NCBI RefSeq assembly: GCF_011320225.1
Contig: NZ_JAAOEN010000001.1
Location: 124,001-188,000, forward strand
Direction of reading: 5' to 3'
Length of the DNA: 64,000 nt
Source of the DNA: Phytoactinopolyspora limicola
Lineage (GTDB): Bacteria; Actinomycetota; Actinomycetes; Jiangellales; Jiangellaceae
Below the pieces are notes generated by a model that did no database searches, was not told the DNA's origin, and was given only the letters and a program-made list of their open reading frames with translations. The translations under genes were made by a program, and so were the position numbers. Each line of letters opens with the position of its first letter. The stretch's first letter is position 1. Of this stretch, positions 3,550 to 12,305 are shown piece by piece.

Positions 3550-3762
3550 ACCGCACCTCCCGAGGATGACGATGACACCGGGCAGTGTACGACATCCGCA
3601 TTTGCGTTCGCATAGCGAACATCGGTTGGATCGGCGCCCAACGGGGTAAGACGATGGACGGCGTGGCCGAAAGACCCGATCGATCATGGCGCTGGCAGCG
3701 CCGCGCCCGGCCTCGTAGAGTATGCGCGGATGCTGACTCGGCCCACCGGAGGTGCCTCACCT

Positions 3763-4515
3763 GTGGACATCCGAGCGTCGCCTGCTCCGTTGGTGTTCGC
3801 GCTCGCGGCCGGGATCGCCCTGATGTCGTGTGCGCCGCCGCCGAGCTACGGCGAGTTCGTCCGCCCGGCCACCTCCGATCGAGCCGAACCGTTGCCCTGG
3901 GATGCCCCCACCTTCGGGCTCGACCTCAAGGGCGACATCAACCGCCTCCGGCCAGACCCACCATCGCCATCGCCCACTCCCACGCCGACGTCCACTCCGC
4001 CACCGCCATCGTCAACTCCCTCGGAGAGCGGGCGGCCCAGCGAGCCGTCGCCGTCCGACACCCCCGAGCCAGAGCCCACCCGAAGCACCGAACCGCCCGA
4101 CGACACCACCAACGAGCCGACCCCGCCGTCGGGTCCGGACGCCGCCGAACAGGAGATCCTGGAACTCACCAACGCCGAACGCAGCGAACACGGCTGTCAA
4201 CCGTTACGCGCCGACGAACGCCTCGCCGCCGCGGCCCGGGCGCACAGTGTAGACATGGCGACCCACGGTTACCTCGACCACACGAGCCTGGATGGCCGCA
4301 GTCCAGCCGATCGCGCAGCCGCCGCGGGCTACCACCGCTGGGGTGGGGAAAACGTCGCCATGGGCTACCCGACGCCAGCCGCAGTCGTCGCTGCCTGGAT
4401 GGACAGCGAAGGACACCGGCGCAACATCCTCAACTGCGACTTCCGCGCCATCGGGGTTGGTGCGGCCGAGGGATCGCGCGGCATGTACTGGACGCAGAAG
4501 TTCGGCTACGAGTGA
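3763..4515 (+). CDS. CAP/SCP-domain (YkwD-like) lipoprotein
   Basis: About 250 residues. A signal peptide ends at a lipobox-like LMSC. A Pro/Ser/Thr-rich linker of roughly 80 residues follows, then a CAP domain. The CAP domain shows ILELTNAERSEHG, a HSVDMATHGYLDHTSLDGRSP block, GGENVAMGYPT and the HRRNILNCDFRAIGVG ending, typical of bacterial YkwD/PR-1 proteins. The GTG at 3763 has GGAGG ten bases upstream and gives a clean signal peptide; ATG 3730 would add eleven residues. Role unknown: members are extracytoplasmic and linked to envelope or spore processes. The gene ends just before the palindromic repeat at 4544. Confidence 0.88.
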   Translation: MDIRASPAPLVFALAAGIALMSCAPPPSYGEFVRPATSDRAEPLPWDAPTFGLDLKGDINRLRPDPPSPSPTPTPTSTPPPPSSTPSESGRPSEPSPSDTPEPEPTRSTEPPDDTTNEPTPPSGPDAAEQEILELTNAERSEHGCQPLRADERLAAAARAHSVDMATHGYLDHTSLDGRSPADRAAAAGYHRWGGENVAMGYPTPAAVVAAWMDSEGHRRNILNCDFRAIGVGAAEGSRGMYWTQKFGYE

Positions 4516-4543
4516 GTGACAGAACGCCATGTCAGACCCGGCA

Positions 4544-5051
4544 GCGCCCCACCCCGTGTGTGCACCTGATCTCCGTTTTGTCACCTGATCTTTTTCTGTG
4601 AGGCGATCAGGTGTACCAACGGCGGGTGTCGGCGCGGTGTGGTGCACCTGATCGCCTCCACCATGCGGACGCGCGGCGATCAGATGCACGATCGGCGTTT
4701 TTGGGGCGGGTTGTGCATCTGATCGGTAGCAGGTGTCTGGTCAGCGGATCGGTGGCGGGTCTGGCGAGTGGTGTCCGGCGAGTGGGCCCGGTCACCCGGC
4801 TGGGGGTGTTGGTGGTGGTGGGGTGGCTCGTCGTTGTTCGCATCCCGCGTGGTCGTCATCGGGCGTGACGATCAGATGCATCAACTGACTGACAGGCCGC
4901 GGTGACGCATCTGATCGCCACGCGTCCACATCACGGGACGCGATCAGATGCACCACACCGCGCCGACACCCGCCGTTGGCACACCTGATCGCCCCACAGA
5001 AAAAGATCAGGTGACAAAACGGAGATCAGGTGCACACACGGGGTGGGGCGC
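4544..5051. repeat. 508 bp near-palindromic element with 12 copies of a TGCAYCTGATC motif
   Basis: Arms 4544-4653 and 4942-5051 are reverse complements over 110 bases with only three mismatches (by eye). The 288-base centre keeps a weaker mirror symmetry. The 11-mer TGCAYCTGATC, or its complement GATCAGRTGCA, or a one- or two-base variant, occurs at 4561, 4580, 4605, 4643, 4678, 4714, 4870, 4906, 4942, 4980, 5005 and 5024. No convincing protein is encoded. It fills the whole gap between two convergent stop codons (4515 and 5054). It could be a MITE or REP-like element, a multi-site protein-binding array or a double hairpin RNA terminator; sequence alone does not decide. Confidence 0.9.
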
Positions 5052-5053
5052 CG

Positions 5054-5776
5054 CTACATGGTCTTCGCCAGCGCGACGAGGCGTTCGGCCAAGGCGTCGA
5101 CGATCTGGTCGAGCCTGGCTTCGCCAGCCGCGCGATCAGCTCGATCGGGGCGGTCGGTGAAGCCGTCCATGGCGGCCCAGATGCCGGCATCGTGGACCTC
5201 CACACCATCAATAGCGGCGGCCTCAGGCACGTGATCGCGCGGTTCGGCGGACCCCATCAGCTCCGGGCGGACCGCGCCGACCAGAGAGGTCTCGAACTCG
5301 CCGGCATGACCGGGCGACGTGCCAGGGCCGGCCATCCGCCAATAGTCGACGTGTGCCACGGCTATCTCGTGGCGAGCAGCCGCCGCGGCCGAGGCCGCGT
5401 GACAGATACCCACGTTGCCGCCGTGCCCGTTGACCAGGACGACCCGCCGGCCACCATCGGCCGCGACCGAACGGAGGAGGTCGACCAGCACAGCTAGCAA
5501 CGTCTCCGGGGTGAGCGAGAGAGTGCCACCAAAAGGCAGGTGATGGTCGGATGCTCCGAAGGGCAGAACCGGTGCGATCACCAATGGTCGAGAGGATTCC
5601 TTCTCCGCCCGCTCCGCGGCGCGTTGGGCGACGGTGGCCGCCATGAAGGTATCGGTGCCGGTGGCCAGGTGCGGCCCATGTTGTTCGACGGCCCCGACGG
5701 GCAACACCACCAATGCCTCCGGAAGCAGCTCGGTCAACACTTCACGGTTCACGTCCGCCCAGCTCACCACAGTCAT
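5054..5776 (-). CDS. creatininase-family amidohydrolase
   Basis: 240 residues from ATG 5776; an in-frame ATG at 5806 would add ten residues. The family's metal-binding motifs are present: VGAVEQHGPHLATGTDT near the N-terminus (Glu, His, Asp), LVNGHGGN in the middle, and GHAGEFETS for the second catalytic Glu. Known members hydrolyse creatinine, formamides in riboflavin/F420 biosynthesis (ArfB) or the mycofactocin precursor (MftE). No mft or rib genes are visible here, so substrate assignment would be a guess. Its stop codon lies only two bases beyond the right arm of the palindromic repeat. Confidence 0.9.
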   Translation of the reverse strand: MTVVSWADVNREVLTELLPEALVVLPVGAVEQHGPHLATGTDTFMAATVAQRAAERAEKESSRPLVIAPVLPFGASDHHLPFGGTLSLTPETLLAVLVDLLRSVAADGGRRVVLVNGHGGNVGICHAASAAAAARHEIAVAHVDYWRMAGPGTSPGHAGEFETSLVGAVRPELMGSAEPRDHVPEAAAIDGVEVHDAGIWAAMDGFTDRPDRADRAAGEARLDQIVDALAERLVALAKTM

Positions 5777-5961
5777 GTCTCCACGCCTTCCGACTGGTCG
5801 AGGCATCGGACCGCCGCTGCGGCGCCCCCGAACACTGAGTTTCTAGCACACCTCTACCGAACCCTCCCGGCGACCCGAATAATCGTCACCATGAACATCC
5901 GGGCACCGTGGCGAGTACCTCGTTGTCGCACCACGGGAACGGCTTCGCCACAGGAGGAAGC

Positions 5962-10679: not shown

Positions 10680-11384
10680 GTGCAGATCGACGCGCGAATC
10701 CAGGCCAACGTCACCGCCCTACACGAACGGATCGCCCACAGTTGCCGGGCGGCGGGCCGTGATCCAGCCGACGTTGACATCCTGCTCGCTACCAAACAGG
10801 TTCCAGCCGATCGAATCGCCACCGCGGTCCGTACCGGGATCCGCCTGATCGGCGAGAACAAGGTGCAGGAGTTGGCCGAGAAAGATGCTGGCCTGGCCGG
10901 ACTCGACTGCACGCGGCACTTCATCGGGCATTTGCAGTCCAACAAGGTCAACCAGGTCTTACGGCACGTCTCGTGTATTCAGTCGATCGACTCCGTCGAC
11001 CTAGCCGATCGCCTCCAGCGGCGGCTCGACACCCTGGACCAGACCATCGACGTGCTCGTCCAGGTCAACACGTCGGCTGAGGACAGCAAGTTCGGAGTAA
11101 CCGCGGATGGCGCGGCCGACCTGATCCGTGAGGTCGCCCGCCGCGACCGGCTACGGCTGCGCGGCTTGATGACCATCGGGCTCCCCTCCGACGATCCAGA
11201 ACTAGCTCGCCCCAGTTACCGCTCACTGCGTGCGATCCGGGACGATGTACGTCACTCCACCGGCGGTGAACTACGCCTAGACGTCCTGTCGATGGGGATG
11301 AGCCACGATCTCGACATCGCCATCGCCGAAGGCGCCACGATGGTGCGGGTCGGCACCGCCGTCTTCGGGACGCGCCAGGCCTAA
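10680..11384 (+). CDS. YggS-family PLP homeostasis protein
   Basis: 234 residues, the normal family length. It binds pyridoxal 5'-phosphate on the Lys of LLATKQVPADRI and keeps free PLP low; it is not known to catalyse a reaction. Family motifs are LIGENKVQEL, HFIGHLQSNKVNQVL, VQVNTSAEDSKFGV, RGLMTIG and SMGMSHDLDIAIAEGATMVRVGTAVFG. GTG 10680 follows GGGAGGACGGCA, a good ribosome site. It is monocistronic here, away from the division genes it often accompanies. A MITE-like element begins immediately after the stop codon. Confidence 0.93.
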   Translation: MQIDARIQANVTALHERIAHSCRAAGRDPADVDILLATKQVPADRIATAVRTGIRLIGENKVQELAEKDAGLAGLDCTRHFIGHLQSNKVNQVLRHVSCIQSIDSVDLADRLQRRLDTLDQTIDVLVQVNTSAEDSKFGVTADGAADLIREVARRDRLRLRGLMTIGLPSDDPELARPSYRSLRAIRDDVRHSTGGELRLDVLSMGMSHDLDIAIAEGATMVRVGTAVFGTRQA

Positions 11385-11542: not shown

Positions 11543-11571
11543 CTAAGCGGGCGTCCACCCACCGAGGCTGC

Positions 11572-11980
11572 CCGCAGCGTGCAACCGCACGGGCGTCAGC
11601 CGCTCCCCGCCCAGACGGACCGACCGGCAGACCGACCGACCGGCAGACCGACCGACCGGCAGACCGACCGCCCGGCAGACCGACCGCCCGGCAGACCGAC
11701 CGCCCGGCAGACCGACCGCCCGGCAGACCGACGTGGCCACCACAAGGCGCCTTACTGCACCCTCCACCTCGGCACAAGGAGGCTTGTTGTCGCCCAAACC
11801 ACCATAAGGAGGCTTGTGGCGGACCGGGATGCGCGACAAGGAGGCTTGTTGTCGCCCAGGTGGAGCTCCCGCACGGAGTGGAGGTGGTGCACGGAGTGGA
11901 GGTGGTGCGTAATCGGAGTGACGGCGGTGTCACCAGAGCAACACCTCCGCCGCTCCGTTGCCGCACCAACTTCACTCCGT
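11572..11980. repeat. dispersed intergenic repeat, copy 1
   Basis: This stretch is homologous to 35841-36179. Shared blocks in the same order are CCGCAGCGTGC, GTGGCCACCACAAGGCGCC, three AAGGAGGCTTG-type units spaced 30-32 bases apart, GGTGGAGCTC, AGTGACGGCGGTGTC, AGCAACACC and GCCGCTCCGTTGCCGCACC. Copy 1 differs by the 16 bp minisatellite inserted after its first block. Open frames through it are a by-product of the repeat and are not called as genes. It is probably a mobile or RNA-structured repeat family; its function is unknown. Confidence 0.8.
11612..11732. repeat. 16 bp minisatellite, seven units plus a partial
   Basis: Seven head-to-tail copies of CAGACCGACCGMCCGG run from 11612 to 11723, then a partial unit to about 11732. 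The first unit has one variant base; units 2-3 carry A and units 4-7 carry C at the variable position, which suggests stepwise duplication. The corresponding place in copy 2 of the host repeat (near 35889) has only a single short GGAGCGACC. The unit length is not a multiple of three, so it is unlikely to be coding. Confidence 0.95.
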
Positions 11981-12305
11981 CCTGCGCATGCGGTCAGACC
12001 CGGGGCCGATACGGGCGCGCCTGGCACACCGCTGCATACGTCGACGAGCAGGCTCAGATCACGTTGACCCCGGGCAATGAGAGCTGGATTACCCCTCGAT
12101 GGCCCACGCCAGATCCGCCGACGGTGGCCCGCACGAAACACCACACCGACCATCCTGGGGGCGGAGCCGGGGCCAGGTGTCGTACTATCGCCTGGGAGTA
12201 GGGCACCGTTGATCATGAGCTACCACACCCGGTCCGCTTGCCGCGATGGCGGTGGGATCGGCTAGATATGTCCGTGTTCGGCGCATCGTCGAGGCACGTT
12301 CGGGA

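Follow-up and report, generated by a model that had tools for sequence, protein, structure and literature searches.

The palindrome at 4541-5054 of the window, by which we mean the whole 64-kb stretch of DNA analysed, repeats one short oriented motif between two convergent genes and raises the question of what such an element is. An earlier note on this DNA left three options: a multi-site binding array, a mobile element and a structured RNA. The 110-base arms that it described (4544-4653 and 4942-5051) do form an inverted repeat, with exactly 3 of 110 positions mismatched, and a repeat finder run on the same locus returned 119-nt arms (4541-4659 and 4936-5054) that are 96% complementary. The 12 copies that it reported of TGCAYCTGATC all hold as the 9-mer CAYCTGATC, while the full 11-mer is present in just 7 of the 12. 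These 12 9-mers stand at mirror-image positions within the element, as had been claimed, and CAYCTGATC has no further occurrence elsewhere in the 64-kb window, where 1.1 would be expected from shuffling. The flanking genes are convergent, again as described, a CAP-domain gene (stop at 4515) facing a creatininase-family amidohydrolase gene (3' end at 5054). The features of the locus are the following:

3730..4515, + strand: left flanking gene, for a CAP-domain (PF00188) protein; its stop is 47 nt short of the first motif
4541..5054, no strand: whole two-arm element (palindrome), a 96% inverted repeat with homologous copies genome-wide
4541..4562, + strand: outer C-rich segment (..CCCCACCCCGTGTGTG) ahead of the first motif, based on the arm-edge table and stop codon use
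4563..4724, + strand: left arm, with 9-mers at 4563(+), 4582(+), 4605(-), 4645(+), 4678(-) and 4716(+)
4725..4869, no strand: motif-free centre, with full-length alignments at C1:29072, C1:128562, C1:204584 and one copy on contig C39
4870..5032, - strand: right arm, with 9-mers at 5024(-), 5005(-), 4982(+), 4942(-), 4908(+) and 4870(-)
5033..5054, - strand: outer G-rich segment, the mirror of 4541-4562, based on the arm-edge table and the repeat finder
5054..5806, - strand: right flanking gene, for a creatininase-family amidohydrolase (PF02633); a TAG stop ends it, 21 nt away from the right arm's outer motif

Elsewhere in the window, positions 11543-12067 hold long open reading frames that overlap on the two strands, together with short repeats (RPADRPTGRPTDRQT / GLPGGRSAGRSVCR), which suggests a tandem-repeat stretch and not a true gene.

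Geometry and folding of the arms

The basic unit is an arm of about 163 bp with six oriented 9-mers (++-+-+), and the canonical two-arm element reads ++-+-+-+-+--. The palindrome as a whole was considered as the unit and dropped, since copies in P. alkaliphila and J. gansuensis mostly consist of one arm, ++-+-+, about 163 or 173 bp long, with the same geometry. The spacings of the left arm in the window are 19, 23, 40, 33 and 38, the right arm has them in reverse, and this geometry is common to about 90 arms from the three genera surveyed (Phytoactinopolyspora, Jiangella and Haloactinopolyspora). Numbering the motifs m1 to m6, the m1-m2 spacing is 19 in 89 of 90 arms and m2-m3 is 23 in 87 of 90, an apparent invariance that is inflated, as are the p-values below, by arms that were partly chosen by motif and share descent. 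The m3-m4 spacing falls into classes of 39-41 (56 arms), 49-52 (25 arms) and 60 (1 arm) with none in between, thus varying in steps of about 10 bp, or one helical turn; the remaining spacings are 33-35 and then 38-39. Spacer identity goes down to 41% (28% by chance) while motif identity stays at about 95%, and close copies, taken as best matches by overall identity, differ at 6 of 864 motif positions vs 340 of 3151 spacer positions. From these sequence patterns we infer that helical-turn steps, and sites kept despite spacer drift, are what a protein complex sitting rigidly on duplex DNA would need. An inverted repeat, CGCTACCGCCAGATGGCGTTAA..TTAACGCCATCTGGCGGTAGCG, was also seen in or beside arrays near C1:417869-418670, 479406-480215 and 1122600-1123560 of the genome G000.

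Folded as RNA, the 508 bases reach -385 kcal/mol vs -230 for shuffles (z = -25), and both strands fold very well. Two alternative hairpin sets are possible within the arms, with pairings that form in >92% of cells. Covariation is above that of shuffles for the m3:m4/m5:m6 and m2:m3/m4:m5 stems, does not choose between the two alternative pairings, and leaves the TGATC core almost invariant. RNA structure, or a constraint on single-stranded DNA, may thus contribute; the fixed spacing is not explained by RNA structure. An Rfam search gave one chance match only, outside the element. With regard to the hairpin and U-run of intrinsic terminators, strong hairpins are present and by inspection no U-run follows them; actinobacterial terminators often have no U-run.

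Besides the arrays, G000 has three or more other families of intergenic palindromes, nearly perfect and with a TGATC core beside a C-tract (CCCCGGTGATCGTTGCCGG; CATGATCATGAACACTTTGCCGTG; GTGATCATTGGCTTTTGACTACCGG), for example:

C1 459656-459883 and 822664-822819: palindrome family 1
C1 220023-220110 and 442674-442809: palindrome family 2
C1 251618-251720 and 700184-700289: palindrome family 3

Congener DNA likewise contains family 1 and, more rarely, family 3, and a hairpin like those of family 2 lies at the orthologous junction in G002.

Copy number, distribution and dispersal

The genome-wide count that the earlier note had proposed gave 521 occurrences of the 11-mer vs 2 for a reversed-pattern control in the Phytoactinopolyspora genome G000 (6.59 Mb in 40 contigs, of which all of contig C1, 1.159 Mb, and about 1.5 Mb in total were read). 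On C1, 178 of 209 9-mers lie within groups of three or more, so the motif is not the common and unclustered word that the earlier note had named as a refutation. One architecture common to many independent copies also rules out an assembly artefact. A DNA similarity search of G000 found dozens of copies, and since there are about 20 elements on C1, we extrapolate to about 100 in the genome; the 4541-5054 element is thus estimated to be one of about 100 dispersed copies. Several G000 contigs end in array elements. Contig breaks at or near elements, seen at C1 (both ends), C2, C14, C16, C18, C21 and C36, exceed what chance would suggest, long palindromes presumably hindering assembly, and copies may be under-counted given these breaks.

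An inverted-pair pattern of the motif has 318 matches in G000, 81 in P. alkaliphila (G004) and 2, 0 and 0 in three other Phytoactinopolyspora. Outside the genus it has 115 in G011, probably Haloactinopolyspora alba, in a record of which (L028) one of the matched hairpins recurs, and 58 in J. gansuensis (G014); the opposite-pairing pattern gives the same picture. Among 297 genomes of the class, more than one match per genome was found in Jiangellaceae alone, and a wide DNA-pattern search returned arrays in Phytoactinopolyspora and Haloactinopolyspora records alone, the rest being taken as single chance matches. The element belongs to Jiangellaceae alone, and even within the genus its distribution is uneven. 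A plasmid and phage search found no DNA resembling it. Viral contigs were rejected as a source, having 76 scattered single matches, taken as chance, and 0 arrays. Searches of an open-access library turned up no description of the element in Jiangellaceae.

Dispersal is seen directly in near-identical copies: the one at C1:653941 and a counterpart on contig C2 have unrelated flanks and are 98% identical (596 of 609 positions, over 610 bp). In the subfamily of the window, the two arms differ from each other by 21-30%, yet match the corresponding arm elsewhere by up to 97%; the whole two-arm element has therefore dispersed as a unit, and the motif-free centre (4725..4869) has spread along with the arms. 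Empty sites exist in congeners. At C1:1092587 of G000, a 659-bp array is flush with both stops of a convergent pair, and the orthologous junction in 4 of 4 congeners has the same convergent pair with 54-98 bp of other sequence between the genes. Hairpins occur at this junction in G001 and G002, and the hairpin is absent in G000, where the array sits. At a site on contig C34, the corresponding genes of the congener G002 lie 14 bp apart, and two single-arm sites of P. alkaliphila correspond to short gaps of 11-103 bp in G000 and G001.

These copies resemble MITEs in being dispersed, near-identical and non-coding in unrelated contexts, and the motif-free centre is too short to encode a transposase. 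Terminal inverted repeats are present in two-arm copies, while most of the copies read from P. alkaliphila and Jiangella have one arm only. A search for target duplications, which the earlier note had suggested, found none, direct repeats being no longer than with permuted flanks (26 elements). In the roughly 1.5 Mb of G000 that was read, no transposase, autonomous copy or binding protein was found, and the Y1 transposase (PF01797) occurs in 0 of 22 Jiangellaceae genomes, with control genomes positive. Three double-flush elements fit a TA/CTAG target, with CTAA..TTAG flanks on contigs C34 and C23. We suggest that such a target would explain the TAA/TAG flush stops; non-flush arms have no TA at their edge. 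Elsewhere on contig C34 of G000 (L111 13827-14666), a small gene judged CsbD-like from inspection of its translation lies between two arms, in the orientation opposite to that in G001-G004, which suggests that the gene was flipped by recombination between the arms.

Placement at gene ends and explanation

A location between convergent genes holds in large part: among C1 elements with at least six motifs, 14 of 17 are at convergent junctions, which make up 18% of gene junctions in the background, and 3 are not. A sharper rule than convergence is that each arm begins directly after a stop codon. With genes called by a home-made codon model, arms start after a same-strand stop in 60 of 70 cases in G000 and in 8 of 8 in the P. 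alkaliphila sample, often within 4-20 nt, where intergenic boundaries would give 46% (p ~4e-12, copies treated as independent). The stops up to 21 nt from an arm (n = 25) comprise 17 TAA and 6 TAG, i.e., 23 of 25 vs 33% expected (p ~1e-9), and the commonest stop in the G000 genome is TGA. Outer segments of the 4541..4562 type are in other copies often flush with a TAA or TAG stop codon. In some genes, a TGA within the first or second motif serves as stop. Three genes take their tail, CAPDLRFVT, from the element; among them is that of an enolase without the last ~15 positions of its Pfam profile. The stop-codon rule is looser in J. gansuensis. A run of the heptamer GGCGGCT stands between one arm and the neighbouring stop on contig C29 of P. 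alkaliphila (L178, ~10870-11000).

Two of the three options of the earlier note, the binding array and the mobile element, are supported and best combined, while a structured RNA alone is less so, because the 9-mer cores are near-invariant and the variable gap steps by about 10 bp. We favour, with modest confidence, a lineage-specific mobile interspersed DNA element that has a rigid six-site protein-binding array as its core and is lodged at the 3' ends of genes. Dispersal, empty sites in congeners, placement after stops, and sites and spacings conserved as spacers drift are the direct observations behind this reading. The core of the mobile element would be a DNA duplex carrying six 9-bp sites in the orientations + + - + - +; the window has two such sets, inverted, and a predicted sequence-specific protein may bind the phased sites as a single complex. 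The element would insert, or survive, beside stop codons, mainly TAA and TAG, and once inserted could displace the ordinary terminator hairpin. It would then mark the 3' limit of the two convergent genes, through a protein roadblock, transcript hairpins or both. Where both edges are flush with stops there is no room for another terminator, and any terminator there is therefore the element. A bolder version, unlikely as it stands, is that of a dedicated roadblock terminator, in which a lineage-specific protein on six-site arrays after stops would end convergent transcription from both sides at about 100 loci instead of intrinsic hairpins, the arrays having spread as mobile DNA and been domesticated.

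Possible, but doubtful, is a plain MITE-like parasite without a termination role, in which the six-site arms would be transposase ends, the targets TA/CTAG-like sites that are enriched near stops in a GC-rich genome, and the space between convergent genes the place of least harm. Phased multi-site ends are known in some transposons. The empty sites, whole-unit dispersal and patchy distribution all agree with such a parasite, as do the enrichment of TAA/TAG among flush stops and the occurrence of the otherwise rare CTAG in 54 of 192 convergent stop-to-stop segments; the same least-harm argument has been made for pneumococcal repeats (PMC3049150). On the other hand, it must accommodate the lack of target-site duplication, of a transposase and of an autonomous copy in the ~1.5 Mb read, single arms with no second end as the usual form in other species, and non-flush arms with no TA at the edge. 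Transcripts from either gene might instead form several hairpins or a single giant one, ending transcription or protecting mRNA ends, with the repeats kept as stems. Such an RNA element would draw on the strong folding of both strands, the stem covariation beyond shuffles and the hairpins at the same junction in a congener. We consider it improbable, with core pairs that almost never vary, ~10-bp gap steps that hairpin loops do not require, hairpins without a U-run after them, and arms of the window subfamily that diverge from each other though each is conserved between loci.

The two remaining alternatives borrow from known repeats. REP/REPIN elements mobilised by a RAYT (Y1) transposase would account for dispersed, palindromic units in single and inverted-pair forms with a convergent and 3' bias, as in REPs (PMC3733652), but no Y1 transposase is present in 22 of 22 family genomes, the edges carry no GTAG/CGTC tag and the unit has 163 bp, not 20-40. 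The absence of the Y1 transposase led us to reject this very improbable reading. A DNA-uptake-type signal whose inverted pairs also act as terminators, the arrangement known from Neisseria and Haemophilus, is hardly credible at all. In its favour, the 9-11-mer forms inverted pairs that are found mainly between convergent genes, as uptake sequences do (PMC1852404). Uptake sequences also occur about a thousand times singly, within genes too, and singles are few here: C1 has 31 motifs that stand alone or in twos, ~11 being expected by base composition, vs 178 of 209 arrayed.

Comparison with known systems

In res sites, lambda attP and Tn7 ends, a stretch of 100-250 bp contains several oriented sites of ~10 bp whose helical phase is fixed. 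The arms described here are alike in their oriented and helically phased sites, while no recombinase is linked to them and they are present in about 100 chromosomal copies at gene ends. TTF-I Sal-box arrays lie downstream of mammalian rRNA genes and are roadblock terminators. They share with the arms oriented sites just 3' of genes, which would stop polymerase, although the protein is here only predicted. Roadblocking of RNA polymerase has been reviewed (PMC10310618).

Bacterial interspersed palindromes are usually viewed as hairpins, whereas the conserved feature here is the geometry of an array of predicted protein sites, near base-pair-exact across three genera and stepping by the helical turn. 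The arrays also offer a testable case of mobile DNA capturing gene 3' ends, with the native terminator hairpin replaced at one tested site. The pneumococcal BOX, RUP and SPRITE repeats are interspersed, presumably mobile, and enriched between convergent genes and near 3' ends; BOX supplies the stop codon of 36 genes, and SPRITE has been proposed to be a co-opted terminator (PMC3049150). The element resembles them in its interspersed, presumably mobile repeats and its bias to convergent junctions and 3' ends, and differs in having a fixed array in which one 9-mer is repeated at six sites spaced by helical turns, its start directly after the stop, the lack of any target duplication seen, and its GC-rich actinobacterial lineage. 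With REP/REPIN (PMC3733652), it has in common the palindromic, extragenic single and inverted-pair forms and the convergent bias, but not the Y1 transposase, which the family lacks, nor the GTAG/CGTC tag, and its unit is several times longer. The uptake-sequence terminators of Neisseria and Haemophilus (PMC1852404) are likewise short inverted motif pairs between convergent genes, in contrast to the long phased arrays found here in place of dispersed singles. These differences from BOX/RUP/SPRITE, REPs and inverted uptake sequences, the kinds already known, make the element a new form among the interspersed repeats of bacteria.
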